Shown here: positions 1,977 through 21,600 of the stretch, one piece after another
Layout: each line of letters opens with the position of its first letter
Numbering within the stretch: the stretch's first letter is position 1
Origin: Pseudokineococcus lusitanus
GTDB taxonomy: Bacteria > Actinomycetota > Actinomycetes > Actinomycetales > Quadrisphaeraceae
Direction: 5' to 3'
Assembly (NCBI RefSeq): GCF_003751265.1
Contig: NZ_RJKN01000010.1
Location: forward strand, 1 to 64,000
Length of the DNA stretch: 64,000 nucleotides
The notes under the pieces: generated by a model
Told to the model about the DNA's origin: nothing
Database searches by the model: none
What the model saw: only the letters and a program-made list of their open reading frames with translations
Position numbers and translations under genes: made by a program

Positions 1977-2838
1977 GGCCGTAGGCCTCCTCGGCCCGCC
2001 AGAAGAAGACGGCGCCGCCGACGAGCGTGACGACGGCCCAGCCGATCCCGAGCGCCCACACGTCCCAGCCGACCTGGACCTCGGTGAGGAGCCCGGTGCG
2101 GACGAGCGTGATGTAGACCTGCACGGGGTTGACCATGGCGACGGCCTCGGCTGCCGGCGGGAGGCCCACGCGCTCGATCGAGTAGAAGAGCCCGCTGATG
2201 TAGAAGAGCAGGCGCGTGACGAAGGGGAGCAGCTGCGCGACGTCCCGCACGTGCAGCGTGACGCGGGCCGCGACGAAGGCGACGCCCTGGCAGAACATCG
2301 TCATGAGGACGAGCGCGGGCACGACGAGGAGCCAGCGCCACGTCAGCGGCTCGCCGAAGACGAGGGCCACGACGGCGGCCATCCCCATCATCGGCGCGAG
2401 CGCGTAGACCTGCTGCAGCACGACGGAGATCGGCAGCACGGCGCGCGGGAAGTGCATCGTCCGGACGAGGCCGAGGTTGCTCGTGATGGCCTTCGAGCCG
2501 TCGTTGAGGCACCCGGCGAAGTACTGGAAGACGAAGATGCCGATGACGAGGAACGGCACGAAGTTGTCGGGCCGGGTGCTGCTGGCGAGCAGGAGGCCGA
2601 AGACGACGCCGTAGACCACGGCGTTGAGCAGGGGCCGCACGAGGACCCAGCCGAGGCCGAGGCGGTTCTCCTCGTTCTGGCCGCGGAACCGCGAGCGGGA
2701 CAGCTCGAGGAGGAAGTGCCGGCGCTGCCACAGCTCGCGCACGTACTCCCCGGCGGCCGGGCGCCGCCCGAGCCGCTCGAGCCCCGCCTCGCGCGCCAGC
2801 CGCGCGGCCGGGCTCGGGGACGCCTCCGCGGCGCTCAC
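1969..2838 (-). CDS. Polysaccharide ABC exporter, ABC-2 type permease
   Basis: 289 aa membrane protein of the ABC2 (Wzm/TagG) family with about six hydrophobic segments, for example LLNAVVYGVVFGLLLAS, FLVIGIFVFQYFAG and WALGIGWAVVTLVGGAVFF. The cytoplasmic N-terminus carries the typical ELWQRRHFLLELSRSRFRG amphipathic stretch before the first membrane helix. Start GTG 2838 forms a GTGA overlap with the stop of the dehydrogenase, showing tight translational coupling. It forms the membrane channel with the Wzt-like ATPase. Substrate is unknown; the adjacent dehydrogenase suggests a glycan containing an acidic sugar, which is inference. Confidence 0.92.
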   Translation of the reverse strand: MSAAEASPSPAARLAREAGLERLGRRPAAGEYVRELWQRRHFLLELSRSRFRGQNEENRLGLGWVLVRPLLNAVVYGVVFGLLLASSTRPDNFVPFLVIGIFVFQYFAGCLNDGSKAITSNLGLVRTMHFPRAVLPISVVLQQVYALAPMMGMAAVVALVFGEPLTWRWLLVVPALVLMTMFCQGVAFVAARVTLHVRDVAQLLPFVTRLLFYISGLFYSIERVGLPPAAEAVAMVNPVQVYITLVRTGLLTEVQVGWDVWALGIGWAVVTLVGGAVFFWRAEEAYGRE

Positions 2839-4097: not shown

Positions 4098-4221
4098 GGC
4101 AGTCCTCTCGGCGGCGGGGGCCCGGCAGGCGGTGGTCGCGCTCGCCCTCCCGGGCAGTGCGGGAGTCTGCCACCCGCCGCGCGGGAGGCCGCGCACGCCG
4201 GGCCGTCCCGCGGGCGGCACC

Positions 4222-4276: not shown

Positions 4277-4360
4277 GTGGCCCAGCAGCACCCCCCTCGC
4301 CCGCCCCGCGGCACGGCCGCCGGCACCCCCGCCGGCACGTCCGGGGGCCGGGCGTGCTGA
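4277..4360 (+). CDS. Possible 27-residue leader peptide
   Basis: A short frame starting at GTG 4277 with a strong ribosome-binding site (GAGGAG 4262-4267, 9 nt spacing). It reads VAQQHPPRPPRGTAAG and ends in GGRAC-stop. Its TGA (4358-4360) sits directly over the beginning of the following glycosyltransferase, whose GTG 4354 has only a weak site of its own. It could be a translated leader that delivers ribosomes to the large gene by termination-reinitiation. Alternatives: a chance frame, or a real N-terminal extension separated by a sequencing frameshift. The Pro/Gly/Thr-rich composition argues against a folded protein. Confidence 0.35.
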   Translation: MAQQHPPRPPRGTAAGTPAGTSGGRAC

Positions 4361-7300
4361 CCCCGGCGCGCGTCCGCTCGGCGCTGCGGCGCCGGGCCCG
4401 GGGGAGCCGCCTGCTGCTCGCGGCGGGCCGTGCGGCGTCCGTGCCCGTGGTCCTGCGCTCGCCGCTCTTCGACCGCGGCTGGTACGAGGCGCAGGTGGGG
4501 CGGCGGCTGCCCGGGCGGACCGCGGCCGTCGTCCACTACGTGCGGCACGGCTCGCGCGCCGGCCTCAGCCCCTGCCGCCTCTTCGAGGCGGAGTGGTACC
4601 AGCCGGCGCGTTGGCGCAGCGCGCCCCTCGACCCCTTCGCCCACCTGCTCCTGCGGGGGCGGCCCGACGCGCAGCCCCACCCCCTGCTCGACCCGCTCGG
4701 CGCGGGCGGCGGCGCCCGCCCCGTGCCGGAGGTCCTGGCGGCCTGGCTCGCGGCGGCCGCGCCCACGACGCCGCTGCCGCTGCCCCCCGCGGAGGGCCGG
4801 CCGGGAGGGCCCTCGCCCGCGACGGCGCCCGCGCTCGGGCTCCGGCTGCCCGCGGGCGCGGCCCCCGTCACGTGGGGCGCGCTGCGGGCGGCGCAGGACG
4901 ACGCCGTCCGGCGCCACCTCGCCCAGGACCGGCTGCGCCACGACCCGCGGCTGACGCCCGCCGCCGACCGCGACCCGCACCAGGACGCGCTCGTCGCCGC
5001 CACGTGGGCCGACGCGCCGCTGCCCGCCCACGACGGCCCGCTCGTCACCGTCGTCATGCCCGTCCGCGACCGCGAGGCCGTCGTCGGCCGCGCCGTGCGG
5101 TCGGTCCTCGCCCAGACCCTCCCGTCGTGGGAGCTGCTCGTCGTCGACGACGGCTCGCGGGACGGCACGCGTGCCGCCGTCCTCGCGGCCGCGGGGGGCG
5201 ACCCCCGGGTGCGCGTCCTCGACGGCCCGGCGCGGGGCGTGGCCGCCGCCCGCAACGCCGCCCTGCCGCACGGGCGCGGCTGGTGCACGGCCTTCCTCGA
5301 CTCCGACAACGCCTGGGAGCCCGCCTTCCTGCGCACGGCCGTCGCGACGATGCACGCCCGGCACGCCCCGGTGGCCCACGCCGCGGCGCGCGTGGTGCGG
5401 GCGGGCGGCGACCTCGTGCGCGACCTGGACGCGCAGGCCGAGCACCTCGCCGTCCGCAACCACGTCGACCTCAACGTGCTCGTCGTCCGGTCCGACCTCC
5501 TCGCGGAGGTCGGCGGCTTCGACGAGACGCTGCGCCGCACCGTCGACTACGACCTCGTGTGGCGGCTGGCCCGCCGTGCGTCCCTGCTGCACGTGCCGCT
5601 GGTCGGCGTCGTCTACGACGACGACCGCACGGGCGACCGCCTGTCCACGACCGAGCGCCGCTCGTGGAAGGAGGTCGTCCGGCGCCGTCACCTCGTCGAC
5701 TGGGACGCCCTCGCCACGACGCCGACCGCCGTCGGCACGACGAGCGTGCTCCTCGTCGCCCGCCGCGGCTGGGCCGAGGCGTGGCGCGCCGTGACGGCCG
5801 CCCTCGGCGACGCCACCGCCGACGGGCGCGCCCGGGACGCCGACCGGGCCGTCGTCGTCGACGCCGGGGGACGCCCCTCGGTGGCCCGGCTCCTGGGCGC
5901 CCTCGCCCTCGTCGACCCCCGCGTCACCGTGCTGCGGACCCCCGACGACGTGGGCGTCCCGCTGGGGCTCGACCTCGCGCTCGCGGCGGCCACCGGCGAC
6001 GTCGCCGTCCTCCTGGCCGAGGACGCCGAGCCGGTGCCCGGCGCCCTGGCCGCCCTGCGCGCGGCCCTCGACGACGGGGCGCCGGCCGCCGGGGCCCTGC
6101 TCCTCGACCACCGCGACCTCGTCGTCGCCGCGGGGACGGGGGGAGCCCCGGGGGCGCCCGAGCCCCTGCTGGCCGACCTGCCGGCCGACGACGCCCGCCG
6201 CCTCGGCCCCGTCGTCGCCGTGCCCGCGCTCCGCGGGGAGGCGCTCGCCGCGCGCACCGCCGACCTCGTCGCCGAGCGGTGCGCCGACCCGCTGCTGGCC
6301 GGCGGCGGCTGGGACGTCGACCTGTCGGCCCGCCTGGCCGCGCGCCGCGGGGCGTCGCCCGTCCTCGTCACCGGCGCCGTCGTGCGCACCGGTGCGGCGG
6401 TCGGGACGACGCGCCGGGCCGCCCCCGCGACCCGCGCCACGAGGACCGACCCCGCCGAGGTCGCCGCCGACGCCGCGGAGAACGGCCGGCGCCACGGGGC
6501 GGCGGCGACCGCCTGGGCCGCCACGACGGCCGACCTGCGGCGGCGCGCCGACCCGCGGCACCGCCCCGCCGCCGTCGTGACCGCCGAGGCCCCGCCGCGC
6601 CTGCGGTGGGCGGTGCGGACCGCCGCGCTGGCGGGCCCGCGGGGCGACACGTGGGGCGACCGCCACTTCGGCCGGGCCGTCGCGGACGCGCTCGCCGCCC
6701 TCGGCCAGGAGGTCGTCGTCGACACGCGGCACTCGCTGGGCCGCAGCACCTCCGACCTCGACGACGTCGTCCTCGCCGTCCGGGGCAAGGTCCCGCTGGC
6801 GCCCGCCGACGGCGCGGTGCGCCTCGCGTGGGTCATCAGCCACCCCGACCTCGTCGGCGCGGAGGAGCTGGCCGCCTACGACCGGGTCTGGGCGGCCTCG
6901 GCGGCATGGGCGGCCGACCCCGCCCGCGGCCGGGACGTCGGGGTGCTCCTCCAGGCCACCGACCCGCGGCTGTTCCACCCGGCGGCGGGGGAGGGCGACG
7001 CGGTCGAGCACCACGACGTCCTCTTCGTCGGCAGCTCCCGGTCGGTGTACCGCCCCGTCGTCCGCGTCCTCGTCGAGGCGGGCCGCGACGTCGCCGTCTA
7101 CGGCGGGGGCTGGGAGCGCTTCCTGCCGCCGGGCGTGCTGCGCGGCAGCGGGATCGACAACGCGGCCCTGTCCGCGGCCTACCGCGGCGCGGGCCTCGTG
7201 CTCAACGACCACTGGGAGGACATGCGCCGCTCCGGCTTCGCGTCCAACCGCCTCTTCGACGCCGCGGCGTCGGGCGCCCGGGTGGTCAGCGACCACGTGG

Positions 7301-7524
7301 AGGGGCTCGGCGACGTCGTCGGCCCGCTCGTGCGGACCTACGCCGACGAGCGCGAGCTGCTGGCGCTCGTCGACGAGGGCCCGGCGGGGTTCCCGCCCGA
7401 CGCCGAGCGCGCCCGCCTGGGGCGCCGTGTCGGCGAGCTGCACTCCTTCGACGCCCGCGCGCGGGTGCTGCTCGAGGGGGCGCTCGCCGTGCGCGCCGGC
7501 CGCCCGGGGCGCGCCGCGCGCTGA
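4354..7524 (+). CDS. Large fused glycosyltransferase: FDxxWY module, GT2, degenerate GT2, CgeB-like GT
   Basis: 1056 aa. Order: basic amphipathic N-terminus; a tryptophan/tyrosine-rich module (LFDRGWYEAQ, then LFEAEWYQPARW) at about 38-100; a GT2 domain at about 228-450 with VVDDGSRDG and a DxD-like FLDSDNAW; a second GT2-like stretch at about 462-700 that lacks clear catalytic motifs; and a C-terminal GT-B half at about 747-1040 of the CgeB/Glyco_trans_1_2 type (LAWVISHPDLV, LFVGSSR, LNDHWEDM, SNRLFDAAASGARVV). It therefore probably adds two or more sugars to one growing surface glycan in the cytoplasm. It is a paralogue of the protein at 18638-21775 with the same domain order. Start GTG 4354 overlaps the end of a short leader frame. 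Donors are unknown; rhamnose is possible from the context. Confidence 0.85.
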   Translation: MLTPARVRSALRRRARGSRLLLAAGRAASVPVVLRSPLFDRGWYEAQVGRRLPGRTAAVVHYVRHGSRAGLSPCRLFEAEWYQPARWRSAPLDPFAHLLLRGRPDAQPHPLLDPLGAGGGARPVPEVLAAWLAAAAPTTPLPLPPAEGRPGGPSPATAPALGLRLPAGAAPVTWGALRAAQDDAVRRHLAQDRLRHDPRLTPAADRDPHQDALVAATWADAPLPAHDGPLVTVVMPVRDREAVVGRAVRSVLAQTLPSWELLVVDDGSRDGTRAAVLAAAGGDPRVRVLDGPARGVAAARNAALPHGRGWCTAFLDSDNAWEPAFLRTAVATMHARHAPVAHAAARVVRAGGDLVRDLDAQAEHLAVRNHVDLNVLVVRSDLLAEVGGFDETLRRTVDYDLVWRLARRASLLHVPLVGVVYDDDRTGDRLSTTERRSWKEVVRRRHLVDWDALATTPTAVGTTSVLLVARRGWAEAWRAVTAALGDATADGRARDADRAVVVDAGGRPSVARLLGALALVDPRVTVLRTPDDVGVPLGLDLALAAATGDVAVLLAEDAEPVPGALAALRAALDDGAPAAGALLLDHRDLVVAAGTGGAPGAPEPLLADLPADDARRLGPVVAVPALRGEALAARTADLVAERCADPLLAGGGWDVDLSARLAARRGASPVLVTGAVVRTGAAVGTTRRAAPATRATRTDPAEVAADAAENGRRHGAAATAWAATTADLRRRADPRHRPAAVVTAEAPPRLRWAVRTAALAGPRGDTWGDRHFGRAVADALAALGQEVVVDTRHSLGRSTSDLDDVVLAVRGKVPLAPADGAVRLAWVISHPDLVGAEELAAYDRVWAASAAWAADPARGRDVGVLLQATDPRLFHPAAGEGDAVEHHDVLFVGSSRSVYRPVVRVLVEAGRDVAVYGGGWERFLPPGVLRGSGIDNAALSAAYRGAGLVLNDHWEDMRRSGFASNRLFDAAASGARVVSDHVEGLGDVVGPLVRTYADERELLALVDEGPAGFPPDAERARLGRRVGELHSFDARARVLLEGALAVRAGRPGRAAR

Positions 7525-8755: not shown

Positions 8756-10882
8756 ATGAGCCCCCGCCCCACCCCCTCCGTCCGCCCGGTCGCCCGCCCG
8801 GCCGTCCGCCCGGTCGCCGGCAGGGCCCGTCGTGCGCTCGTCGTCGCCGTCGCCGTCGCCGCGCTGGGACTGCCCGGCCTGCCGGGTCCCGCCGCCGCGG
8901 CCGGCGTCGGCGTGGCCGCCGCGTCGACGACGTGCCCCGCCGCCGGCGGCGCCGTCGTCCCCGCGGCCGCGGCGCCCGCCGGGAGCCCGGACGTCGTCCT
9001 CGACGGCCACGGCTTCGGGCACGGGATGGGCCTGAGCCAGTACGGCGCCCGCGGCGCGGCGCTGCTGGGGTGCTCCTCCTCGACCATCCTCACGACGTAC
9101 TACCCCGGCCTCGTGCCGGCCCGGCGCGCCACCCGGCCCACGGTGCTCGTCGACCTCCTCACCGGCGGCGGCCCGTCCTCGCGCGCCGAGCTCCGCGCCG
9201 ACGCCGGCCCCGTCCGCTGGGTCAGCGGCGGGCAGGAGGTCGTCCAGCCGCAGGGGGCGACGTGGACGGTCCGCCGGGCCGCGTCCGACCGGCTCGAGGT
9301 CCTCGCCGGGACGGGAGCCGGGGCCGTCGCGCCGCGCGGCTTCGCCCCGGTCGCCGGGGCCCTCGTCCGGGCCGACCACGGGGGCCAGGAGGTCCGGCTG
9401 TCCACGTGGACGTCGTTGGGCGCCACGCCGCTCGTGCGCCGCTCGGACGCGGACGCCGCCCGTTTCGCCCCCCGGAAGGCGGGGCTCGAGGTGCGCGCCG
9501 TCCTCGTCGACGGCGCCCGCGGCTCCGCCGTCGACGCGTACCTGCGCGGTCTCGCGGAGATGCCGGTCACGTGGCCGCAGGCCGCCCAGGAGGCGCAGGT
9601 CGTCGCGGCCCGCACCTTCCTCCTCGGCCGCTACGTCTCCTCCGAGGACGCCTACGTCGTCCGCCCCACGACCGCCGACCAGGTCTGGGCGGGCGCCGAG
9701 CGGCGGGCCGAGGACACGCGGAACGGCGGCGGGCTGGCCCGCGCCGTCGCCGCGACGTCGACGACCGGCGCCGGGACCGTCCTCACGACGGCGTCGGGCG
9801 GCCTCGCCCGTGACCTCTTCTACGCGTCCAGCCACGGGGGCTGGTCGGAGACGAACACCTACGTGTGGGGCTCCGCCCCCGTGCCGCACCTGCGCCAGGT
9901 CGACGACAGCCGGTGGGCCCTGGCCTCCGGCGACCCCAACCTGTCGTGGACGGTCGGGCTGAGCTGGGCGCAGGTGGCGGACGCCTTCGGCCTCGCGACG
10001 GCCACCGACCTGCGCGTGGCCCCGCGCGGCCAGGCCGCCCGGACGGAGGTCGTCGTCGTCGGCACGCGCGCGGGCAAGCCCGTGACGCTGCGGGTCACGG
10101 GCCAGAAGGCGCGCGACGCGCTGCGCGCCGTCGCCCCGGGCGTCCGGTCGTCCGGCTTCACCGTCCGCCCGCCCGCGCCGGTGGCGCCGCCCGCGACGGC
10201 GGCCCCGGCGGCCGGCGCCGCCGCCGGCCGGCCCGTCGCGCTCGACGTCGACGGGGACGGGCGCGACGAGGTGGGCTGGTTCTCCGGCGGCACGTGGACG
10301 CTGCGGTCGGCGGACGGCAGCACCCGCTCCTTCACCTTCGGGCGCGCGGGCGACCTGCCCGTCACCGGCGACTGGGACGGCGACGGCCGCGACGGCGTCG
10401 GCGTCGTGCGCGCCGGCGTCTGGCACCTGCGCGAGCAGGCCGGCCCCGGCGCCGCCGACCGCTCCTTCGCGTACGGCCGGGCCGGGCAGCAGCCCGTCAC
10501 GGGCGTCTGGGCCCCCGGCCGCCCCACGGGGATCGGAGTCGTGGCGGGGGGCACGTGGCACCTGCGCGACGCCGTCGGGCCGGGAAATGCGTCCAGGACC
10601 TGGACATTCGGGGCACCTGGTGCGCAGGCTGTGCCCGGTGACTGGGACGGAGACGGGGTCGACGACCCGGGTGCCCTCGACGGGGCGCGCTGGACGTTCG
10701 GCTCCTCGGCCCGTCTGACGATCCCCCCGCTCGTGCTCGGACGCCCCGGCGTCCGGGGCGTGGCGGGGGACTGGCAGGGCCGCGGGGGCGACCTGCCGGG
10801 CGTCGGGCGTGCCGGTGTCGTCCACGTCGCCGCCCGCCTCGACGACGGGCGGTCCGCGACCCCCTGGCAGGTCCTGCGCTGA
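8756..10882 (+). CDS. Secreted SpoIID/LytB-domain protein with C-terminal WDGDG repeats
   Basis: 708 aa. An Arg-rich n-region and hydrophobic stretch ALVVAVAVAALGLPGLPG ending in PAAAAG form a signal peptide. Residues about 80-470 are SpoIID/LytB-like: HGFGHGMGLSQYGARG, VDAYLRGLAEMPVTWP with the Glu that is catalytic in SpoIID transglycosylases, and AQVVAARTFLLGRY. The last 220 residues hold four to five copies of a GDWDGDGxDxxG / WxLR / FGRxGDLPVTG unit with DxDxDG calcium-type loops, resembling FG-GAP/VCBS beta-propeller blades. It probably acts on peptidoglycan glycan strands outside the membrane. SpoIID domains occur in many non-sporulating actinobacteria, so this is not evidence of endospores. 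It is the first of three neighbouring wall genes sharing the repeat. Confidence 0.85.
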   Translation: MSPRPTPSVRPVARPAVRPVAGRARRALVVAVAVAALGLPGLPGPAAAAGVGVAAASTTCPAAGGAVVPAAAAPAGSPDVVLDGHGFGHGMGLSQYGARGAALLGCSSSTILTTYYPGLVPARRATRPTVLVDLLTGGGPSSRAELRADAGPVRWVSGGQEVVQPQGATWTVRRAASDRLEVLAGTGAGAVAPRGFAPVAGALVRADHGGQEVRLSTWTSLGATPLVRRSDADAARFAPRKAGLEVRAVLVDGARGSAVDAYLRGLAEMPVTWPQAAQEAQVVAARTFLLGRYVSSEDAYVVRPTTADQVWAGAERRAEDTRNGGGLARAVAATSTTGAGTVLTTASGGLARDLFYASSHGGWSETNTYVWGSAPVPHLRQVDDSRWALASGDPNLSWTVGLSWAQVADAFGLATATDLRVAPRGQAARTEVVVVGTRAGKPVTLRVTGQKARDALRAVAPGVRSSGFTVRPPAPVAPPATAAPAAGAAAGRPVALDVDGDGRDEVGWFSGGTWTLRSADGSTRSFTFGRAGDLPVTGDWDGDGRDGVGVVRAGVWHLREQAGPGAADRSFAYGRAGQQPVTGVWAPGRPTGIGVVAGGTWHLRDAVGPGNASRTWTFGAPGAQAVPGDWDGDGVDDPGALDGARWTFGSSARLTIPPLVLGRPGVRGVAGDWQGRGGDLPGVGRAGVVHVAARLDDGRSATPWQVLR

Positions 10883-10974
10883 CGACGGAGCAGCGATCAG
10901 GGGCTACAGGTGCGCGCGGGCCGTGACGACGTAAGGGCATGGCCCTGCACCCCCGTCCGACAGGAGCTCGCCCC

Positions 10975-12999
10975 GTGCCGCACCATCTCCTCCGCCTCGG
11001 CGGAGCCCTGACCTGCGCCGTCGCCGTCGTCGCCCCCCTCGGGCTCGCGGCGACGCCCGCGCTGGCCGCGCCCGTCACGGCCGCCGCGGCCGCCGCCGCG
11101 GTCGAGGACGCGCCGGTCGCCACGAGCACCGACGTCGTCCCCGAGGTCGGCGTCGACGCCGACGCGCTCGCGCAGCTGCGCGCGGCCGGCGACCCCGCCG
11201 CCCGCCCCGCCGTCCTCACGGACGAGGTGGCCACCGACGCCGACTTCGACGTCCTCGGCGTCACCTGGTCCGCCGCCGACACCTCGGCCGGCGCGGTCAC
11301 CGTGGCCGTGCGCGTCCTCGAGGACGGCGCCTGGTCGACGTGGGAGACCCTGCCCGTCGAGGACGCGGGCCCCGACGCCGGCTCCGCCGAGGCGCGATCG
11401 GCCGCGCCCGTCGTCGGCACGTCGCCGCTGGCGACCGACGGCGCCCGCGGCTACCAGCTGCGCGTCGACACGACGAGCGGTGCGGCGCCGCGGGACCTGC
11501 AGGTGCGCGTGGTCGACGGCGGCGACGGCGACGTCGCCCGCGTCGAGCGTGCGGCGGGCCCGGCCGCGGCCGCGGCCGCGGCGGAGGTGCGGGGAAGCAC
11601 CGTCGCCGCGTCGGCCTCGACCCCGGCGGCGGGCACGCTCTCCGCGGCCTCGGCGGGCACGCTCTCCGCGACCGCCTCGACAGCGGCCCAGCCGACCATC
11701 GTCACCCGCGCGCAGTGGGGGGCGGACGAGTCCCTGGCCCGCGGCACCGGGCGCAACGACACGGTCAAGGCGATGGTCGTCCACCACACCGCGTCGTCGA
11801 ACAGCTACTCCACGGCGAGCCAGTCGATGAGCCAGCTGCGGGGCATCTACGCGTACCACACGCAGTCCCTGGGCTGGTCCGACATCGGCTACAACTTCGT
11901 CGTCGACAAGTTCGGCACGATCTACGAGGGCCGCCGCGGCAGCATCACCGAGAAGGTCATGGGCGCCCACGCCGCCGGCTTCAACACCGACACCATGGGC
12001 GTCTCGGCGATGGGCAACTACGAGGAGGCGGCGCCCTCGTCCGCCCTCGTCCGCAGCATCGCGGCCGTCGTGGCGTGGAAGCTCGGCCAGTTCGGCGTCT
12101 CGCCCACGGCGACGACGACGCTCACGTCCGCCGGCGGCGGCACGGCCCGCTACTCCAAGGGCCGTGCGGTGACGCTGCCGACGGTCCTGCGGCACATGGA
12201 CGTCGGCTACACGGCGTGCCCCGGCTCGGGCCTGTCCGCGCAGATGGACACCATCCGCTCGCGGGCCGCCCAGCTCCAGGCCGCCGCGACGCCGACGCCC
12301 ACCCCGACGCCCACCCCGGCGCCCGCCCCCGTGCCGGCCGGCGCGCAGACCCTCGTCGGCGACTGGAACGGCGACGGCACCGACCAGGTCGGCCTCTTCG
12401 TCGACGGGGACATCTCCCTGCGCCGCGCCGACGGCGGGACGCTGCGCTACCGCTACGGCGGCAAGGGCGACATCGCCGTCGTCGGCGACTGGGACGGCGA
12501 CGGCCGCGACACGGTCTCGGTCTTCCGCCGCGGCCAGTGGCTCATCAACGACTCGCTGTCCGGCGGCAGCGCGGACCGTTCCTTCTGGCTCGGCCAGGCC
12601 GGCGACGTGCCCGTCACCGGCTCCTGGGACGGCCGCAGCCAGGGCGTCGGCGTCTACCGCGACGGGCGCTGGCTCCTGCGCAAGTACCCCTCGGCCGGGC
12701 CGGTCCACGTGTCGCTGAACTGGGGCCGCACGACCGACCGCCCCGTCGTCGGCGACTGGGACGGCGACGGCGCGGACACGCCGGGCCTCCAGCGCGGCGC
12801 GCAGCGCTTCCGCCTCGACTCCCTCTACCCGGGCTCGCCGGGGCCCATCAGCTTCGGCCGCGCGAGCATGCCGGGCTTCGCCGGCGACCTCGCCGGCAAG
12901 GGCCACGACGGCTGGGGGGCCCGCCAGGGCGCGACCTTCCTCTACCGCACCGACGTCCGCGGCGGCGTGGCGCAGGGCTCCGTGGCGGTCGTCCGATGA
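10975..12999 (+). CDS. Secreted PGRP/amidase_2 N-acetylmuramoyl-L-alanine amidase with C-terminal WDGDG repeats
   Basis: 674 aa. Start GTG 10975 has AGGAG 8 nt before it; an in-frame ATG at 10939 adds 12 residues but has a poor site. The signal peptide reads LTCAVAVVAPLGLAATPALA. A linker domain of about 200 residues precedes the PGRP-type amidase (about 225-435): TRAQWGADES, MVVHHTASSN with a zinc His, YNFVVDKFGTIYEGR, and RHMDVGYTACPG with the C-terminal zinc ligands. A PTPTPTPTPAPAP linker follows, then five propeller-type blades with VVGDWDGDGRD motifs. It should cleave the MurNAc-L-Ala bond of peptidoglycan in the wall. The last 222 codons align without gaps to the next gene, so this module was duplicated. 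Its stop overlaps the next ATG. Confidence 0.9.
   Translation: MPHHLLRLGGALTCAVAVVAPLGLAATPALAAPVTAAAAAAAVEDAPVATSTDVVPEVGVDADALAQLRAAGDPAARPAVLTDEVATDADFDVLGVTWSAADTSAGAVTVAVRVLEDGAWSTWETLPVEDAGPDAGSAEARSAAPVVGTSPLATDGARGYQLRVDTTSGAAPRDLQVRVVDGGDGDVARVERAAGPAAAAAAAEVRGSTVAASASTPAAGTLSAASAGTLSATASTAAQPTIVTRAQWGADESLARGTGRNDTVKAMVVHHTASSNSYSTASQSMSQLRGIYAYHTQSLGWSDIGYNFVVDKFGTIYEGRRGSITEKVMGAHAAGFNTDTMGVSAMGNYEEAAPSSALVRSIAAVVAWKLGQFGVSPTATTTLTSAGGGTARYSKGRAVTLPTVLRHMDVGYTACPGSGLSAQMDTIRSRAAQLQAAATPTPTPTPTPAPAPVPAGAQTLVGDWNGDGTDQVGLFVDGDISLRRADGGTLRYRYGGKGDIAVVGDWDGDGRDTVSVFRRGQWLINDSLSGGSADRSFWLGQAGDVPVTGSWDGRSQGVGVYRDGRWLLRKYPSAGPVHVSLNWGRTTDRPVVGDWDGDGADTPGLQRGAQRFRLDSLYPGSPGPISFGRASMPGFAGDLAGKGHDGWGARQGATFLYRTDVRGGVAQGSVAVVR
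12331..12996 (+). repeat. C-terminal repeat module, copy in the amidase (222 codons)
   Basis: From the VPAGAQ codons to the last sense codon, this 666-nt segment matches 13878-14543 codon for codon without an insertion or deletion. Shared landmarks are VGDWDGDGR, SLSGGSADR, SWDGR, LNWGR, DGADTPGLQRGAQRFRLDSL and GRA.MPGF. It encodes about five WDGDG blades. A more diverged relative forms the C-terminus of the SpoIID-like protein before it. Confidence 0.85.
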
Positions 13000-14546
13000 G
13001 CGGCGCGACCCGCGGCGGCACCCTGCGCCGGCTGCTCACCGCGTCCGCCCTCTGCGCCGGCGTCGTCGTCAGCGCGCTGCCCGCCGTCGCCGCCCCCGCG
13101 GTCGCGCCGGCCGCCGCGTCCACCGACGTGGACGGGCACCACGTCGACGACGGCCACGCGCACTCCCACGACCCGTCCCTCGAGGGCGCGGTCGTGCCGG
13201 GCCCGGGCACCGCCGGCTGGACGGGTCCCGACGCGGCGCCGTCCGCGGGCCGCGGCACGCTCTCCGCCGCGGCGGCGGTCCCCACGCCGAAGCCGGTGCA
13301 GCGCTACTCGGGCGAGCCCGAGGAGCTGGCCCGCTACGTGCCGCAGATCGCCTGCGACCCGGTCGAGCGCGTGGGCACCAACCGCCTGCGCGACCTGCTC
13401 CACGCCACCTACGGCGGCTACAAGGGCGGCACGACCCGCCAGTGCTCCGGGCGCAGCGAGCACTCCGACGGCCGGGCGTACGACTGGATGCTCGACGCCG
13501 GCGACCCCGCCGACGCGGCCAAGGCCGACGCCTTCCTCACGTGGCTCATCGGCCCGGACGCCCAGGGCCGGCCGTCCGGCAACGCCCGCCGGCTCGGGAT
13601 CATGTACGTCATCTGGGACCGCAAGATCTGGGGCTCCTACAACCAGACGTGGAAGGCGTACAGCGGCGCGAGCCCGCACACCGACCACATCCACATCTCG
13701 CTCAGCTGGGACGGGGCGCTCGCCCGCACGTCCTTCTGGACCGGGACGACGCTCACCGGCACCGACTACGGGCCCTGCGTCCGCTACACCGGCGAGGCCG
13801 CGCCGCGGTACTCGGGCCGCAACCCCTCGCCGTGCCCGACGCCGGGCCCGCGGCCCGCGCCGGTCGCCCCGACGCCGGTCCCGGCGGGCGCCCAGCCGCT
13901 CGCGGGCGACTGGGACGGCGACGGGGTCGACGAGGTCGGCCTCTACCTCGACGGCAACGTGTCGCTGCGCCGCGACGACGGCTCGACCGTCCGCTACCGG
14001 TACGGCCAGGCCGGCGACGTCGCCGTCGTGGGGGACTGGGACGGCGACGGCCGCGAGACCGTCGGCGTCTTCCGCCGCGGGCACTGGCTGCTGAAGAACT
14101 CCCTGTCGGGCGGCTCCGCCGACCGCGCCTTCTGGATGGGGCAGTCCGGCGACGTGCCCGTCGTCGGCTCGTGGGACGGCCGCCGCCTCGGCGTCGGCCT
14201 CTACCGGGACGGCCGCTGGATGCTCCGCACCTCGGTGGGCGCCGGCCCGGTCGACGTCTCGCTCAACTGGGGCCGTCCGACCGACGTCCCCGTCCCCGGC
14301 GACTGGGACGGCGACGGCGCGGACACCCCGGGCCTCCAGCGCGGCGCCCAGCGCTTCCGCCTCGACTCCCTGCGCGCGGCGTCCCCGTCGCCCGTCACCT
14401 TCGGCCGGGCCGGCATGCCGGGCTTCTCCGGCGACTTCGACGGCAACGCCCGCGACGGCTGGGGCGTCCGCTCCGGCGCCACCTTCCTGTGGCGCCACGA
14501 CACCCGCGGCGGCGACGCCCAGGGCTCGGTGGTCCTCTTCCGCTGA
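12996..14546 (+). CDS. Secreted LAS-peptidase-like protein (ARB-07466-type domain) with C-terminal WDGDG repeats
   Basis: 516 aa, ATG overlapping the amidase stop (ATGA). Signal peptide: LTASALCAGVVVSALPAVAAP. A His/Asp-rich segment near residue 45 (HHVDDGHAHSHD) could bind metal. Residues about 105-260 match the domain annotated in actinobacteria as ARB-07466-like: SEHSDGRAYDWML and HTDHIHISLSW. The spacing of His, Asp and HxH resembles LAS zinc metallopeptidases (M15/VanY type), so D-Ala peptidase activity is a reasonable guess but unproven. The final 222 residues are the same repeat module as in the amidase. Co-transcription with two wall hydrolases supports a role in peptidoglycan turnover. 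Confidence 0.8.
   Translation: MSGATRGGTLRRLLTASALCAGVVVSALPAVAAPAVAPAAASTDVDGHHVDDGHAHSHDPSLEGAVVPGPGTAGWTGPDAAPSAGRGTLSAAAAVPTPKPVQRYSGEPEELARYVPQIACDPVERVGTNRLRDLLHATYGGYKGGTTRQCSGRSEHSDGRAYDWMLDAGDPADAAKADAFLTWLIGPDAQGRPSGNARRLGIMYVIWDRKIWGSYNQTWKAYSGASPHTDHIHISLSWDGALARTSFWTGTTLTGTDYGPCVRYTGEAAPRYSGRNPSPCPTPGPRPAPVAPTPVPAGAQPLAGDWDGDGVDEVGLYLDGNVSLRRDDGSTVRYRYGQAGDVAVVGDWDGDGRETVGVFRRGHWLLKNSLSGGSADRAFWMGQSGDVPVVGSWDGRRLGVGLYRDGRWMLRTSVGAGPVDVSLNWGRPTDVPVPGDWDGDGADTPGLQRGAQRFRLDSLRAASPSPVTFGRAGMPGFSGDFDGNARDGWGVRSGATFLWRHDTRGGDAQGSVVLFR
13878..14543 (+). repeat. C-terminal repeat module, copy in the LAS-like gene (222 codons)
   Basis: Partner of 12331-12996: equal length, gap-free, and most blade motifs identical (GADTPGLQRGAQRFRLDSL in both). 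Differences are scattered substitutions, so the duplication is not extremely recent or has been partly homogenised. Confidence 0.85.
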
Positions 14547-14910: not shown

Positions 14911-17052
14911 TCAGCGAGCCAGCGCGTCCACCCGCTCCGACAGGACCGTCCACGCCGAGCGGCTCCACGTGTTGGTGAAGTGGCTGTCGTCCGCGTAGAC
15001 GACGGCCCCGTTGGGGGCGACGACGGTGCACTCGTCGGGGCCGGGGCAGACGGCGTCGGTCATGTCGAGCCAGGCCACGCGGTCGCCGAGGCCCTCGGTG
15101 GCGGCGGCTCGCTCCTCGGCCTCGACGAGGACGGTGTCGAGGTGGACGTTGCCCTCGCGGGGGAAGTTGCAGGCGCGCCAGCCGGAGGGCTCCTGCTCGG
15201 ACAGGCAGGAGGGGACGTCCTGGGGGGACCAGGGGGTGTCCTGGACGACGACGACGCGGTCGGCCAGGTCGCCGAGGCGGCCGAGGGTGCGCTCGGCGGC
15301 GGCCTCCCAGACGGGGCCGGTGCCGGCCTCGTCGAGGACCTCGCCGTCGGGGCCGAGCGTCGCCGTCGTGTAGCCCTTGGAGCGGGCGACGAACACGGTC
15401 GTGAGGTCGTCGACCTCGGCGAGGCGCTCCTCGACGGAGGTGCGCCACTGGCCGCACTCGGAGTAGGCGCGGGTCTGGCGGGCCACCCAGACGTCGATGT
15501 CGACGGAGGGGCAGGCGGTCTTGCCCCACACCAGCAGGCGCTGGCCGCGCTCGCGGGCCATCTCGTCGAAGGCGGGCAGCCAGTGGATCGAGTGGCTGTC
15601 GCCGATGAGGGCCACGGTCTCCTCGCCCTCGGGGTCGCCGAAGACGCAGTCGTCGACGGGCGGGGCCTCGGTGCCGGGGTAGCTGACGTAGCAGCCGGAG
15701 GGGCGGGCCTGGTCGGCGCGCGCCTCCTCGGCGGTCATGGACGGGACGTCGACGTCGGGGACGCCGTCCTCGTCGACGGGGGCGGAGGCGGCGGGCGTGC
15801 CGAGGTCGGGCAGGCGCTCGACGTCGACGTCGCGGGAGGCGAAGGGCTGCAGGAGGAGCGCGGCGCCCACGGTGAGGACGGTGAGGCCCGCGCCGAGGGC
15901 CAGGGAGCGGCCGGGCACGGCCGACAGCCAGCGGTTGCGGCGGACCGGGTCCTCGACGAGGACGTGCGAGACGACCGACAGGACGAGCGAGGCGACGACG
16001 CCGAGGACGAGCTGCCAGGCGGTGGGGGAGCCGTCGGCGAGGAGCGCGACGACGACGAGGCACGGCCAGTGCCACAGGTACCAGGCGTAGGAGATGCGGC
16101 CGACGTAGCGGGGGCCGGGCCGCGACAGCAGGGCGCCGACGCCCGCGCCGCTCGCGACGGTGCCGGCGACGAGCAGGAGCACGGCGCCGCCGACGGGCGC
16201 CGCCGCGGCGATGCCCGGGAACAGCGTCGTGTCGTCGTAGGCGACGGCGGACCACAGGACGAGGCCGAGCCCGGCGGCCGCCGCCACGAGGGCGACGGCG
16301 CGGGGGAGGCGCTCGCAGAGCGGCAGGGCCAGCGCGACGGCCGCGCCGGCGGCCAGCTCCCACGCGCGGGTGTGGAGGCCGAAGTAGGCCCACGAGCCGC
16401 TGGTCGGCGTGAGGAGCACCGACAGCACGAGCGAGCCGCCGCCGAGGAGGACGAGGCCCACGGTGACGCGGCGGCGCACGCTGCCCCAGCCCTTCGGGCC
16501 GAGGGCCACGACGAGGAGGATGAGCAGGGGCCAGACGACGTAGAACTGCTCCTCGACGGCGAGCGACCAGAAGTGCAGGAACGGGCTGTCGTGCGAGTCG
16601 GCGCCGAGGTAGTCGGTGGCCCCGACGGCGTAGCGCCAGTTCGCCGCGTAGAGCGCGGCGCCCAGCGCGTCGACCCCGATGCGCGGGCGGTCCAGCGGCG
16701 GCACGAGGAGGTACGCGGCCGCGGCGCTCGCGACGACGACGAGCGCCGCCAGCGGGAGGAGCCGCCGCGCGCGCCGCGCGTAGAAGCGCCGCAGCGAGAT
16801 GGTGCCGCTGCGGCGGACCTCGTCGAGCAGGAGGCCGGTGATGAGGAAGCCGGAGAGCACGAAGAAGACGTCGACGCCGACGTAGCCGCCGGAGAGGAAC
16901 GGCACGCCCGCGTGGTAGAGCACGACGAGGGTCACGGCGACGGCGCGCATGCCCTCGATGTCGGGGCGGAAGCGGCGTCCGGCGTCCAGCCGGGGCCCCA
17001 CCGGCTCGGCGGGGGCGGGCGCGCTCGCGGGCGCGACGTCTCGGCTCTGCAC
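14911..17052 (-). CDS. OafA/YrhL-type acyltransferase with C-terminal SGNH domain
   Basis: 713 aa integral membrane acyltransferase. Residues about 28-400 form an acyltransferase_3 domain with about ten hydrophobic helices; motifs include RPDIEGMRAVAVTLVVLYHA, GGYVGVDVFFVLSGFLI and HFWSLAVEEQFYVVWP. The C-terminal 250 residues form a soluble SGNH domain: block I IGDSHSIHWLPA with the nucleophile Ser, and DDSHFTNTW with the Asp-x-x-His pair. Fusions of this kind O-acetylate surface polysaccharide or peptidoglycan on the outer side of the membrane. Start GTG 17052 begins a short polar N-terminus before the first helix. It stands alone on the minus strand inside the glycan region. Confidence 0.9.
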   Translation of the reverse strand: MQSRDVAPASAPAPAEPVGPRLDAGRRFRPDIEGMRAVAVTLVVLYHAGVPFLSGGYVGVDVFFVLSGFLITGLLLDEVRRSGTISLRRFYARRARRLLPLAALVVVASAAAAYLLVPPLDRPRIGVDALGAALYAANWRYAVGATDYLGADSHDSPFLHFWSLAVEEQFYVVWPLLILLVVALGPKGWGSVRRRVTVGLVLLGGGSLVLSVLLTPTSGSWAYFGLHTRAWELAAGAAVALALPLCERLPRAVALVAAAAGLGLVLWSAVAYDDTTLFPGIAAAAPVGGAVLLLVAGTVASGAGVGALLSRPGPRYVGRISYAWYLWHWPCLVVVALLADGSPTAWQLVLGVVASLVLSVVSHVLVEDPVRRNRWLSAVPGRSLALGAGLTVLTVGAALLLQPFASRDVDVERLPDLGTPAASAPVDEDGVPDVDVPSMTAEEARADQARPSGCYVSYPGTEAPPVDDCVFGDPEGEETVALIGDSHSIHWLPAFDEMARERGQRLLVWGKTACPSVDIDVWVARQTRAYSECGQWRTSVEERLAEVDDLTTVFVARSKGYTTATLGPDGEVLDEAGTGPVWEAAAERTLGRLGDLADRVVVVQDTPWSPQDVPSCLSEQEPSGWRACNFPREGNVHLDTVLVEAEERAAATEGLGDRVAWLDMTDAVCPGPDECTVVAPNGAVVYADDSHFTNTWSRSAWTVLSERVDALAR

Positions 17053-17134
17053 CGGGACAGTCTGGACGACGCCGGGCCGTGGGCCGTGACGCGCCGCCCC
17101 GCGCGCCGCGGCAGGGGCCGCCGACGGCGTTCGT

Positions 17135-17140
17135 TACTGT
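17135..17140 (+). promoter_or_regulatory. -10-like box TACTGT before the WsaF-like gene
   Basis: TACTGT fits TANNNT and lies about 85 nt before GTG 17226. The site is in the 173-bp divergent gap 17053-17225. No clear -35 was found. Confidence 0.3.
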
Positions 17141-17225
17141 CCCCGACGACCTGTTCGACCGGTGCGTCCCGCGACGGCGCCCGCCTGCCCCCGACCCGAG
17201 GGCCGACCCCCAGGGAGAGGTACCC

Positions 17226-18608
17226 GTGCGAGTGACCCGCAGCGGTCGGGTGGCGCTGGCCGCCGTCCGGAGCTACCTGACCGACAAGGACGTCCGCAGC
17301 GGCATCGCCTTCCACGCCCGCGAGGGCCGCTGGCCCGGCGCCGCGGCCTCGTGGTCCCGCTCGGTCACGCCGACCGCGCCGGCGTCGACGGGCGCGCCGC
17401 GCGTCGCGCTGCCCGGCGGCGGCGACGAGGGCACGCCCGCCGTCCCGGTGCCGCGCGTGCGGCTCGGCGAGATCGCCCGCGGCGGCTCGACCTTCGAGCG
17501 CACGTCGCTCGTCGACGCCCCGCCGCACGTCAACCTCGTCCTGCCCGGCCTGGACGTCGAGCGGATCTACGCCGGCCTGCTCACGGCCATGACCGTCGGC
17601 TGGCGGCTCGCGGAGGCGCGCGGCGTGCCGCTGCGCGTGGTCCTCACGAGCGAGGCCGTGGGCTCGACCTCCACGCGGACGCTGCGCCGCTGGTTCGTCG
17701 ACAACGGGTTCGACCCCGCGCGGGCGGCGACGGTCGACCTCGTCGAGCGCGCCCAGGTGCCGTCGGCGACCTTCGGCACCGGCGACGTGTGGGTGGCGAC
17801 GTACTGGACGACGGCCCACGCGCTCGACCTCGCGTGCCGCCGGGGCGCCGTCGACCGCGGCCGCGTCGTCTACCTCGTCCAGGACTTCGAGCCGTCGTTC
17901 AGCGGCTGGAGCGACCAGTACGCCATCGCGGAGAGCACCTACCGGGCCGGCTTCACGCCCATGGTCAACTCCCGCTCGCTGGCCGACTACCTCGCGTGGG
18001 CGGTCGGGCTCGAGGTCGACCCGCAGGTCGTCTTCGCGCCGCACCTCGACCTCCCGGCGCTGCAGGGCGCCGCGGCCGCGTGGGAGCCGGGCGACCCGGA
18101 GCGCCCGCGCGTCTTCTTCTACGCCCGGCCCCGTCACCCGCGGAACCTCTTCCGCATCGGCATCGAGGGCGTGCAGCGCTTCGCCGTCCTCGCCGAGGCC
18201 GAGGGGCTGCGGCCCGACGTCGTCACCGCGGGCGACCTGCACCGCGACGTCGCGCTGACGCCGACGACGGTGGCGCGCAGCGCGGGCAAGCTCTCGATGG
18301 CCGACTACTACGGCCTCGTGGGTCGCACCGACCTCGCGCTCTGCCTCATGCAGAGCCCCCACCCGAGCCACATGCCGCTCGAGCTGGCGTGCAGCGGCGT
18401 CCCCACGGTGACCAACAGCCTCGGCGGCTTCCGCGGCGACTGGCACGACCGGCTCGTCCGCGCGGAGGCCGACCCCGACGCGCTCGGCGCGGCGCTCCTC
18501 GAGGCCTGGCGCACGCGTCCGGAGGGGCACGCCTTCGCGCCGCCCCGCGGGCTCGGCGGCGAGCTGGACGCGGCCGTGGCCGCCGTGGCGCAGCGGGTGC
18601 CGCGCTGA
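17226..18608 (+). CDS. WsaF-like GT4 glycosyltransferase (putative rhamnosyltransferase)
   Basis: 460 aa. Start GTG 17226 follows GGGAGAGG by a short spacer; upstream in-frame sequence is low-complexity. Motifs: VNLVLPGLDVERIYAG, VYLVQDFEPSFSGWSDQYA, TYRAGFTPMVNS, RVFFYARPRHPRNLFRIG and a C-terminal LMQSPHPSHMPLELACSGV. The LVQDFEPxF and ARPxxPRNLF patterns are those of WsaF, the beta-1,2-rhamnosyltransferase of S-layer glycan assembly in Geobacillus, as I recall that family. Expected to transfer rhamnose to a glycan primer in the cytoplasm. The next gene begins at once, so the two are probably co-translated. The dTDP-glucose dehydratase at 24 kb fits a dTDP-rhamnose supply. Confidence 0.8.
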   Translation: MRVTRSGRVALAAVRSYLTDKDVRSGIAFHAREGRWPGAAASWSRSVTPTAPASTGAPRVALPGGGDEGTPAVPVPRVRLGEIARGGSTFERTSLVDAPPHVNLVLPGLDVERIYAGLLTAMTVGWRLAEARGVPLRVVLTSEAVGSTSTRTLRRWFVDNGFDPARAATVDLVERAQVPSATFGTGDVWVATYWTTAHALDLACRRGAVDRGRVVYLVQDFEPSFSGWSDQYAIAESTYRAGFTPMVNSRSLADYLAWAVGLEVDPQVVFAPHLDLPALQGAAAAWEPGDPERPRVFFYARPRHPRNLFRIGIEGVQRFAVLAEAEGLRPDVVTAGDLHRDVALTPTTVARSAGKLSMADYYGLVGRTDLALCLMQSPHPSHMPLELACSGVPTVTNSLGGFRGDWHDRLVRAEADPDALGAALLEAWRTRPEGHAFAPPRGLGGELDAAVAAVAQRVPR

Positions 18609-18637: not shown

Positions 18638-21600
18638 GTGGCCGGACGGGCCGCGCGTCGCACGTCGCAGCGCGTCCGGTCGGCGGCGGCGCTCGCGCCG
18701 CGCCACCCCACCGCCACCCGCGACGAGGCGCGCGTCCTGGCCTCCGGGCTCTTCGACGCCCGCTGGTACCTCGCGCAGGCGGCCTTCCTCGGCGACGACG
18801 TCGACGAGCTCGCCGCCCTGCGCCACTACCTCGCCAAGGGCCGTCGCGCGGGCCGGACGCCGCACCGCTGGTTCCTGCCCGAGTGGATCGACCCCCGGGG
18901 CTGGGCGACCGCCGAGGAGGACCCGCTCGTCACGTACGTGCGGCGGTCGTCGGTGCGCCGCACGTCGGCCCCGCACCCCTGCTTCGACCCCGCCGCCCAC
19001 GTCGCGCGGCACCCGGGCGCCGCCCGCCACCCGATGGGCCCGCTGGGGGACCTGCTCGACCGCGGCCCCGAGACCCCGGTCGACGTCGCCGGCCCCGCCG
19101 GGACCGTCGTCACGACGCGCGGCGCGGTCGAGGCGCTGCTCGACGAGCACCTCGCGCGCTGGGCCGGCCAGGAGGCGCTGCGCACGGCGCCCCGCAAGAC
19201 CGAGCGCTTCACCGAGCCCTCGGGCGCCCGCACGCTGACGGCCGAGGAGGCCGCGCGCCTGGCGGCCACCTCGGTGTCCGTCGTCGTGCCCGTGTGGGAG
19301 CGCGAGGACCTCGTCGAGGTCGCCCTCACCTCGGCGCTGGCGCAGGAGGGCCTGGACCTCGAGGTCGTCGTCGTCGACGACGGCTCCCGGGACGGCTCGG
19401 TGGCCGCGGCGCGCGCCGTCGCCGCCCGCGACCCGCGCGTCGTCGTCGTCGAGCGCCCCCACGAGGGGGTCTCGGCCGCCCGCAACGCCGGCCTCGCGGT
19501 CGCGCGCGGCGAGTACGTCGCGTTCCTCGACTCCGACAACACCTGGCGCCCGGGCTTCCTCGCGCGGATGGTCGCCGAGCTGCGGCGCAGCGGGCGCGAC
19601 GTCGGCTACGGCGTCGTGGCCATGGACACGGGCGAGCGCACCGTCTACCGCGCGCTGGACGCGGGGCGGAGCCACCTCGAGGTCATCAACCACGTCGACC
19701 TCAACGTCCTCGTGGCCCGGGCCGACGCGGTCCGCGCCGTCGGCGGCTTCGACACCGACCTCAAGCGGGCCGTCGACTACGACCTCGTGTGGAAGCTGGC
19801 CACGGCCGGCCCGCTCGAGTTCGTGCCGGTCGTCGGGGTGGACTACCACGCGGACGACTCCGACGTCCGGCGCATCACCGTCACCCACGGCGACAGCTGG
19901 GGCGAGGTCGTCAAGAAGCGCCGGCTGCTCGACTGGGACGCCGTCGCCGCGGCGCCCCGGACCCCGGGCCTCACGTCCCTCGTCGTCGTGACGCGCGACA
20001 GCCCCCGGGCGCTCATGACGGCCCTGTCCGGGCTGTGCGCGGGGGAGGGTGCGCCGGGCGAGGTGGTCGTCGTCGACGACGGCTCGCGCCTGTCCGCCTC
20101 GCTGGCCACGGCGTGCGCCGAGCTGGCCGTGCCGGCGCTGCGCGTGCTGCGCCGTCCCGTGCAGGAGTTCTTCGCCCTCGGCGCCGACACCGGCTTCGCG
20201 GCCACGCACGGCGACGTCGTCGTCCTCGCCGACGACGACGTCACGGTCCTGCCCGGCGACGTCGGCCGCCTCGCCGCCGTCCTGCGCGAGCGGGGCGCCG
20301 CCGCGGTGCAGCCGGTCCTCGTGACCCGCCACGGCCTCGTGCAGCACGCCGGTGCCGTCCTGGAGACGTCGACGGCGCTGCCCGTGCCCTTCCTCGCGGG
20401 CCACCACCCGGACGACGTGGGGGAGGAGCCCTTCGAGGTGCCCGCGCCGGCGGCGTCGCTGCTGGCGCTGGACGCCGCCCGGCACGCGGCGGTCGGCGGC
20501 TTCGACACGCGTTTCCGGAACGGCCTGCACGACACCGACCTCGGGCTGCGGCTGCGGGCGGCGGGCGGGACGGTCCTCGTCGACCCCCGCGTCCACGCGG
20601 TGCACGTCGGCCGGTCCCTCGCCCGCGAGGACCCGCAGGCGCACCACAACTTCCGGCACTTCGTCGCCCGCTACGGCGGCTCGCGGCCGGACCCCGCGCC
20701 GACCTACGCGGACCGCGGCCTCGAGGTCGTCGGCTGGCAGCCGCCGCCCGTGGGGGAGCAGGGGGCGCCCCGCCGCCCGGCGACGCCGCTCGTGCGCCGG
20801 CTGCGGCCGGTCCGCACGCACGTCGAGGGCCACGAGGTCCCGCGCCTGCACTGGGCCATCAAGATCGCGGCCCCCTTCCGCGGCGCGCAGCGCTGGGGCG
20901 ACGAGCACTTCGCCGAGAGCCTGGCGCAGGGGCTGCGGCGCCTCGGCCAGCACGTCGTCGTCGACACCCGCGACACCCGGGTGCGCCCGAGCGCGCACCT
21001 CGACGACGTCGTCCTCCAGCTGCGCGGGCTCATGCCGCTGCCGCCGCAGCCGGGCGCCGTCAACCTCGCCTGGGTCATCAGCCACCCCGAGGACGTGCGC
21101 CGCGAGGAGGTCGTCGGCTACGACGGGGTCTTCGCCGCCAGCGAGACCTGGGCCGAGCAGGCCACCCGGGCGTGGGGCCTGCCGGTGCACCCGCTGCTGC
21201 AGTGCACCGACCCCGCCCGCTTCCACCCGGACGCGGCCGTCGCGGACACCGGCTACAAGGTGCTCTTCGTCGGCAACTCGCGGAACATCCGCCGTCGCGT
21301 CGTCGGCTGGGCCGTCGACGCCGACGTCCGCACGGACGTCGTCGGGCAGGGCTGGGACGGCGTCGTGCCGAGCTCGTGGGTGCGGGGCGAGTACCTGCCC
21401 AACGAGGGGCTCGCGGCGGCGTACCGCGGCGCCGGCGTCGTCCTCAACGACCACTGGGACGACATGCTGCGGGACGGGTTCGTCTCGAACCGCCTCTTCG
21501 ACGCGGTGGCCTCGGGCGCACGGGTCCTCACCGACCCGGTGCCGGGCCTCGAGGAGCTGTTCCAGGGCTGCGCCGTCGCGGTGCGGGACGCCGAGCACCT

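Follow-up and report, generated by a model that had tools for sequence, protein, structure and literature searches.

Gene Layout and Catalytic Heads

The window analysed here is a stretch of 64,000 nucleotides from Pseudokineococcus lusitanus (contig NZ_RJKN01000010.1, positions 1 to 64,000), in which positions 8,756 to 14,546 hold three consecutive genes for cell wall enzymes with a common C-terminal repeat module. An initial annotation, made from the sequence alone, had described them as three consecutive secreted wall enzymes, and the gene calls bear this out: the SpoIID and Amidase_2 heads are recognized by Pfam and the LAS peptidase head by its predicted fold, and secretion is suggested by signal-like N-termini, as judged by eye. 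The first two genes are separated by 56 nt, and the start of the third overlaps the stop of the second as ATGA. The features of the trio are listed below.

8756..10882, plus strand: secreted SpoIID/LytB-type protein, predicted lytic transglycosylase, 708 aa (PF08486, TIGR02669)
9557-9559, plus strand: invariant Glu268 of the SpoIID protein
10226..10879, plus strand: propeller module of the SpoIID protein, 41.7-46.7% amino acid identity to the other two modules
10939..12999, plus strand: secreted PGRP/Amidase_2 N-acetylmuramoyl-L-alanine amidase, 686 aa (PF01510)
11782-11784, 12193-12195 and 12217-12219, plus strand: His282, His419 and Cys427 of the amidase
12331..12996, plus strand: propeller module of the amidase, preceded by a Pro/Thr-rich linker
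12996..14546, plus strand: secreted LAS metallopeptidase, VldE-like by predicted fold and profile match, 516 aa
13287..13841, plus strand: catalytic head of the LAS protein (from fold and invariant residues; no Pfam or NCBIfam family)
13461-13463, 13482-13484, 13677-13679, 13686-13688 and 13692-13694, plus strand: His156, Asp163, His228, His231 and His233 of the LAS protein
13878..14543, plus strand: propeller module of the LAS protein, five blades

The SpoIID protein scores 39.9 bits against PF08486 (cut-off 23) and 101 bits against TIGR02669 (cut-off 83.3), and its Glu268, which we take to be the catalytic residue, is unchanged in all 18 alignment rows. The second protein matches PF01510 (Amidase_2) with 58.3 bits (cut-off 26) and shows the His-His-Cys zinc pattern of Amidase_2/PGRP, the ligands being presumably those of T7 lysozyme. 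The third head belongs to no family in the Pfam and NCBIfam scans, and no Pfam match fell on the VldE-like head in any of the four proteins scanned (this one, L089, L117, and L119). Its predicted structure (pLDDT 93.2) superimposes on VldE (9fln) with Z 11.5 and rmsd 1.8 over 103 aligned residues, the next fold family reaching Z 4.4, and a profile comparison with VldE gave E 5.1e-7. His228, His231, and His233 are aligned to His370, His373, and His375 of VldE (HxDHxH motif), and His156 and Asp163 correspond to His301 and Asp308 by spacing only (His-x6-Asp); none of these five residues varies in 40 of 40 related rows. A serine lies two residues before His228, at the position of the zinc-zipper Glu368 of VldE, and a four-zinc cluster is therefore not expected. 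The modelled head thus resembles a VldE-like LAS peptidase, for which L,D-endopeptidase activity is predicted. Taken together, the three heads would cut different wall bonds, namely MurNAc-L-Ala (amidase), the glycan (SpoIID), and L-Ala-D-Glu (VldE-like).

The Shared Propeller Module

The modules of the amidase and the LAS protein align over 222 codons without a gap, just as the initial annotation had stated, with 163 of 222 amino acids and 532 of 666 nucleotides identical, and the SpoIID tail is 41.7% and 46.7% identical to these two over 187 and 184 amino acids. The repeat fold expected at that stage was obtained for the LAS tail with AlphaFold2, which returned a five-bladed beta-propeller (pLDDT 91.0, pTM 0.87; six sequences) that is closed and built of four-stranded blades, as in FG-GAP-like propellers, with DxDxDG loops intact in three of the five blades. 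The trio tails are like FG-GAP repeats (PF13517, PF01839) in the DxDxDG loop and the propeller blades, but their repeat of ~44 amino acids stays below the FG-GAP Pfam cut-off in all three proteins: against FG-GAP_3 (PF13517), the SpoIID protein reaches only 16.2 bits (cut-off 26.9) and the other two give no match. Among solved structures, the first Foldseek match of the LAS tail was the lectin UmbA4 with Streptomyces griseus teichuronic acid (9oee, E 6.8e-7), on which it superimposes with Z 12.7 and rmsd 4.2 over 216 aligned residues. The next fold matches were again lectins, PVL (Z 11.7) and tachylectin-2 (Z 10.9).

Genome-wide (3.84 Mb in 19 contigs), four genes were found to carry the module, the trio and one gene without a catalytic head. 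All four carriers have a signal-like N-terminus by eye, and the scatter over cytoplasmic proteins that had been named as a refutation of the coordinated set was not seen in this genome. The headless gene lies outside the contig of the trio, on the minus strand of contig C5 at ~26.9-27.9 kb (locus L014). In the following, G000 denotes the genome of the window, and G004, G005, and G006 are other genomes of its genus. Four headless propeller genes are present in G005 (L046, two tandem pairs), and more were seen on L053 and L054. The propeller also forms the tail of a CE4 polysaccharide deacetylase in G005 (L048:4697-6187), a relative that reaches 27.6 bits with FG-GAP_3, and of a lysozyme-like protein in G006 (L049:4482-5735; by eye, no Pfam match). 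The module had no match in catalogued phages. A search of viral contigs gave three loci, of which L243 was inspected, the gene-calling script having called no genes in the other two; by eye, L243:4953-6362 holds a five-blade WDGDG-type module before a possible phage structural region.

The Surrounding Glycan Locus

The trio is flanked on one side by an ABC exporter, a UDP-sugar dehydrogenase, and a large glycosyltransferase, and on the other side by an AT3-SGNH acyltransferase, a WsaF-type glycosyltransferase, and a second large glycosyltransferase. Exporter, dehydrogenase, and glycosyltransferases likewise flank the genes in G005 and G006. Judging from the dehydrogenase, it is plausible that the surrounding locus makes a uronic-acid-containing polymer.

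1212..1976, minus strand: ABC ATPase (ABC_tran), probably Wzt-type, named by position
1972..2799, minus strand: Wzm-type ABC-2 permease (ABC2_membrane in the G006 orthologue)
2835..4220, minus strand: UDP-glucose/GDP-mannose dehydrogenase, uronic-acid precursor enzyme
4354..7524, plus strand: large GT2 and GT4-like glycosyltransferase
14911..17052, minus strand: AT3 acyltransferase fused to SGNH, probably for glycan O-acylation
17079..18608, plus strand: WsaF-type glycosyltransferase
18638..21775, plus strand: large GT2 and GT4-like glycosyltransferase

Further downstream, a secreted-looking protein without a Pfam match (21842-22900) is another divergence spot, being 64% identical between G000 and G006 where the compared neighbours are 91 and 95% identical. 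A DUF1800-DUF1501 gene pair assigned by Pfam (25050-28090) recurs by eye beside an LGFP gene in G004 and inside a Kineococcus LGFP cluster (L191, L117).

Tail Families across the Order

The LAS head occurs in 58 of the 396 genomes of the order. Forty regions were fetched from 38 of these 58 genomes, G004 included, with G000, G005, and G006 read separately. SpoIID hits were present in 150 of 386 genomes, and 40 of these 150 contributed one further region each, 40 in all. Genes in these loci were called with a simple script. Of 95 loci examined, 19 had SpoIID and amidase genes within 3.5 kb of each other and both tails of at least 100 amino acids. A shared tail family was defined as a direct pairwise BLAST match at E 1e-5; single-linkage tail clusters were not used for the counts because chimeric tails merged several families. 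Of the 40 regions taken for SpoIID, the pair counts lack L195, L211, L213, L222, and L226 (no SpoIID or amidase call) as well as L206 and L221 (amidase call only). In addition, L045, L203, and L207 were dropped for having no tail on SpoIID.

Neighbouring SpoIID and amidase proteins share a tail family in 17 of the 19 loci; across genera, 57 of 324 SpoIID/amidase combinations do so. Counted by genus, 11 of 13 share, compared with a permuted mean of 2.3 and with none of 5000 permutations as high. Seven of the 19 loci (the window, L047, L050, L051, L055, L057, and L058) were found via the module search, which favours sharing, and without them the figure is 10 of 12.

The tail family itself differs between lineages, including propeller, LGFP, CWB2, and FG-GAP tails; LGFP, CW_binding_2, PG_binding_1, and FG-GAP_3 are confirmed by Pfam. 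In the family of the window, 11 of 13 genomes have the propeller and the other two have LGFP, never both. Over the 396 genomes of the order, the module is present in 37, LGFP in 126, and both in 5 (Fisher P 0.015), a result that is weak because related genomes are not independent. The initial annotation had seen in the trio a coordinated set with a common anchor. Of this, a common address remains the likeliest interpretation, given the predicted fold, the lectin matches, and the glycan locus, but the trio does not stand alone: it belongs to a type of actinobacterial cluster in which the tail family varies from lineage to lineage.

Within the genus of the window, the same LAS head is found with another tail. 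In G004 (580 contigs) it is 68-71% identical to the heads of the other three genomes and is followed by LGFP repeats (PF08310), of which there are 12 in G004 and none in the genome of the window. Of these four genomes, the three with propeller tails each gave a Wzm orthologue, but none was found in G004, where the dehydrogenase is only a 32% relative. That tail type follows the presence of Wzm within the genus is suggestive only, with four genomes and a fragmented G004.

Some other arrangements were observed. In the Kineococcus locus L117, LAS and amidase genes with LGFP-type tails are coupled a second time, at 12439-15089. L097 has two adjacent LAS genes, one with repeats of the PG-binding type and the other with such a repeat and then a propeller, a possible intermediate of tail exchange. 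G001 (L051, L052) has two amidases on two contigs whose propeller tails are 89% identical. By eye, LAS heads also occur with SLH-like (L098:8131-9393), bulb-lectin-like (L091:5943-7031), and DUF4214-like (L121:8952-10193) tails.

Copied and Fast-Diverging Tails within the Genus

The tails of the amidase and the LAS protein are identical over 708 of 708 bp in G006, linker included, and over a 699-bp run in G005, although some small differences between copies this similar could go unseen in assemblies from short reads; in the window they are 79% identical over 719 aligned bp. At fourfold degenerate sites, the two tails agree at 140 of 140, 137 of 138, and 75 of 111 positions in G006, G005, and the window, respectively. 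Between species, by contrast, only 25-40 of 64-90 such sites agree between orthologous amidase or LAS tails, and the tails are 44-65% identical in amino acids. In a tree, the tails pair by genome, with support of 98/97 for the pair of the window.

Comparison of G000 with G006 places this divergence within the locus. Amino acid identity is 95-96% for Wzm, the UDP-sugar dehydrogenase, WsaF, and the glycosyltransferase at 18638, 91% for a dehydratase at 23961, 86% for the amidase head, and 75% for the LAS head, and it falls to 62 and 65% for the amidase and LAS tails. Fourfold-site identity is 66-69% for Wzm, the dehydrogenase, WsaF, and the glycosyltransferase at 18638, 47-63% for the other compared genes, and 33% for both tails; the amidase tail differs from this glycosyltransferase with P 9e-11 and from its own head with P 0.008. 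In addition, the GC content at third codon positions (GC3) of the G006 tail is 0.826, with 0.91-0.98 in the surrounding genes, and that of the G005 amidase and LAS tails is 0.92, with 0.98 in their heads. In the window, the GC3 of the amidase and LAS tails is 0.99, like the surroundings, and the SpoIID tail has 0.93 against 0.99 in its head. The two lines of evidence are not independent because a lower GC3 itself lowers fourfold-site identity. From the identical tails within genomes, the divergence between genomes, and the lower GC3, we read this as a divergent tail that was imported and then copied into the partner gene. Segmental conversion patches were also looked for in the pair of the window; the longest identical run is 30 nt, not above the shuffles (mean 26.7, P 0.26), and no conversion patch is therefore claimed there. 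Tail exchange and tail copying are both new relative to the initial annotation.

Proposed Mechanism and Alternative Explanations

On balance, our analysis leads us to consider it rather probable that the propeller tail is a lectin by which hydrolases of complementary activity are directed to the wall glycopolymer of the strain itself, and that the tails are exchanged as a set. A common address is the interpretation we prefer in view of the predicted repeat fold, the by-eye secretion, the three cutting types, the glycan locus, and the lectin fold matches; binding to the own glycopolymer is favoured because of the tail fold, the glycan locus, the tail divergence, and the other wall-associated modules found in place of the tail. 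The tail would be a lectin with a five-bladed beta-propeller fold, of the FG-GAP/tachylectin/UmbA type, and its most likely ligand is this glycopolymer, which probably contains uronic acid and would be made and exported by the surrounding locus. The common tail may place the three hydrolases at the same wall sites, so that consecutive steps could proceed without a scaffold: the amidase would strip the stem peptides, the SpoIID transglycosylase would cut the stripped glycan, and the VldE-like peptidase would cut L-Ala-D-Glu. When the surface glycan changes, the tail would be replaced by import of a divergent tail allele, and gene conversion could copy the imported tail into the partner gene, by which the enzymes would keep one address. 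As a broader and clearly more tentative proposal, Actinobacteria might keep the hydrolase address as an exchangeable cassette, a lectin tail fitted to the present surface glycan that is imported, copied by gene conversion into co-operonic enzymes, and exchanged anew as the glycan changes, several enzymes thereby being re-addressed at once.

Several results weigh against this reading. Many proteins that are not lectins also form propellers: the fold matches with a phage tail fibre (Z 10.8) and with glutaminyl cyclase (Z 10.7) rank beside those with the lectins, KICSTOR and BBSome being close behind, so that sugar binding does not follow from the fold by itself. By sequence, neither UmbA nor any chain in the PDB matches the tail at E up to 1. 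Divergence between G000 and G006 is not confined to the tails, since the glycosyltransferase at 4354 is only 85% and the SpoIID head 86% identical. The SpoIID tail takes no part in the copying: its identity to the other two tails of the same genome is 42-46% in G000 and G005, and G006 lacks it. It is the amidase and the LAS protein that form the close unit in this genus, the SpoIID tail being more distant. Moreover, among neighbouring pairs, the tail of the LAS protein is of the same family as that of SpoIID in only 5 of 19 cases and as that of the amidase in 6 of 11, and elsewhere the LAS protein often carries repeats of the PG_binding_1 type (by eye, among the tails listed; Pfam on one). In 11 LGFP loci of Kineococcus and a sister genus, 30 of 31 tails pair best at the DNA level with the same enzyme of another genome, and in no case does the best match come from within the genome itself. 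In the other genera of the window's family, 12 of 12 propeller tails pair best at the protein level with the same enzyme; ten of these partners are in another genome, and two are both G001 amidases, mutually paired. Tail homogenisation as a general rule of these clusters is thus rejected. Finally, SpoIID and amidase orthologues were not found in the 580 contigs of G004, which therefore shows exchange on one enzyme and not of a set, and a Wzm orthologue was not found in eight other propeller genomes of the family, so that the module is not tied to this exporter.

The identical tails could also have arisen by neutral gene conversion between adjacent direct repeats, an account that is compatible with a lectin function. 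The homologous stretches lie ~1.5 kb apart in direct orientation; however, the equally close Kineococcus LGFP trios keep the enzyme-specific tails described above (30 of 31), and we regard this account as doubtful, if the most serious of the alternatives. A calcium-dependent scaffold, which the initial annotation had named beside an anchor, is possible given the three intact DxDxDG loops. The tail would then join the trio, or a common partner such as the headless module protein, by protein-protein contacts with no glycan involved, in keeping with the headless proteins in the window's genome and in G005 and with the many non-lectin propellers that match in fold. We consider it unlikely, as the top three fold matches are all lectins, similar heads elsewhere carry LGFP, CW_binding_2, or PG_binding_1, which are wall-associated by Pfam name or description, and rapid divergence between species would be unusual for a fixed scaffold.

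Binding of the tail to peptidoglycan itself, the function after which PG_binding_1 is named, with neutral exchange among equivalent anchors, seems to us similarly improbable. In its favour, tachylectin-2 binds GlcNAc, PDB titles name GlcNAc ligands for PVL, PG_binding_1 repeats are present on a LAS protein from another family, and similar repeats were seen by eye on many other LAS proteins among the tails listed. Nevertheless, whereas peptidoglycan is expected to be conserved within a genus, no compared part of the locus differs more between G000 and G006 than the tails do, and a tail of a different family is used in one of the genomes of this genus. The enzymes might, alternatively, be weapons whose tails recognize foreign surface glycans, as in umbrella toxins, and are diversified by an arms race. 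The fold match to the UmbA lectin, the divergent and possibly imported tails, and the secretion of enzymes with three different cutting chemistries would all fit, but the genes stand in the cell's own glycan locus in three genomes, similar clusters are widespread with other tails, and no immunity gene was recognized among the Pfam-scanned neighbours, in which no search was aimed at immunity genes; weapons are accordingly very unlikely in our judgement.

Relation to Known Systems

The domains and folds discussed here are already known. Searches of one open library gave no publication on the sharing of tails, on different tail families behind similar heads, or on tail copying in this genus. These findings bear on how wall hydrolases stay at the right wall sites while glycopolymers diversify under toxins or phages, and the match between tail and glycan is directly testable because a single locus contains the tail together with its partners and the glycan genes. 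Function can also be predicted from a shared tail, in that a novel head with the same tail beside SpoIID and an amidase is probably a wall enzyme.

In the SpoIID/SpoIIP engulfment machinery of Bacillus, the transglycosylase needs the product of the amidase, as peptide-free strands; that machinery is not known to have a shared tail, is membrane-bound, and is specific to sporulation. The amidase-LAS-SpoIID cluster of Kineococcus is like the window trio in having the same three head types adjacent with one tail family; it differs in that the tails are LGFP repeats and not propellers and evolve by orthology without copying.

VldE (Spr1875), an MT3 LAS L,D-endopeptidase of Streptococcus pneumoniae with His370 as the proposed base, is described in PMC11667670. 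It is similar to the LAS head of the window in fold, in the HxDHxH motif including the position of His370, and in the His-x6-Asp spacing, but it has a LysM domain where the window protein has a propeller tail. The UmbA lectins of Streptomyces umbrella toxins are the best fold match and, like the trio, place a C-terminal propeller on a secreted protein. In UmbA4, the propeller is responsible for binding, in a species-specific manner, to a polymer resembling teichuronic acid; in the UmbA lectins, the core and the Ca loops are conserved and the sugar pockets diverge, the UmbA families have five to seven blades, and lectin swapping retargets the umbrella particle (PMC13274773). The N-terminal trypsin-like adaptor domain of UmbA was not found in the trio, whose heads are SpoIID, Amidase_2, and LAS. 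Unlike UmbA, the tails described here are five-bladed propellers that sit on wall hydrolases instead of a trypsin-like adaptor and are encoded in the glycan locus of their own genome.

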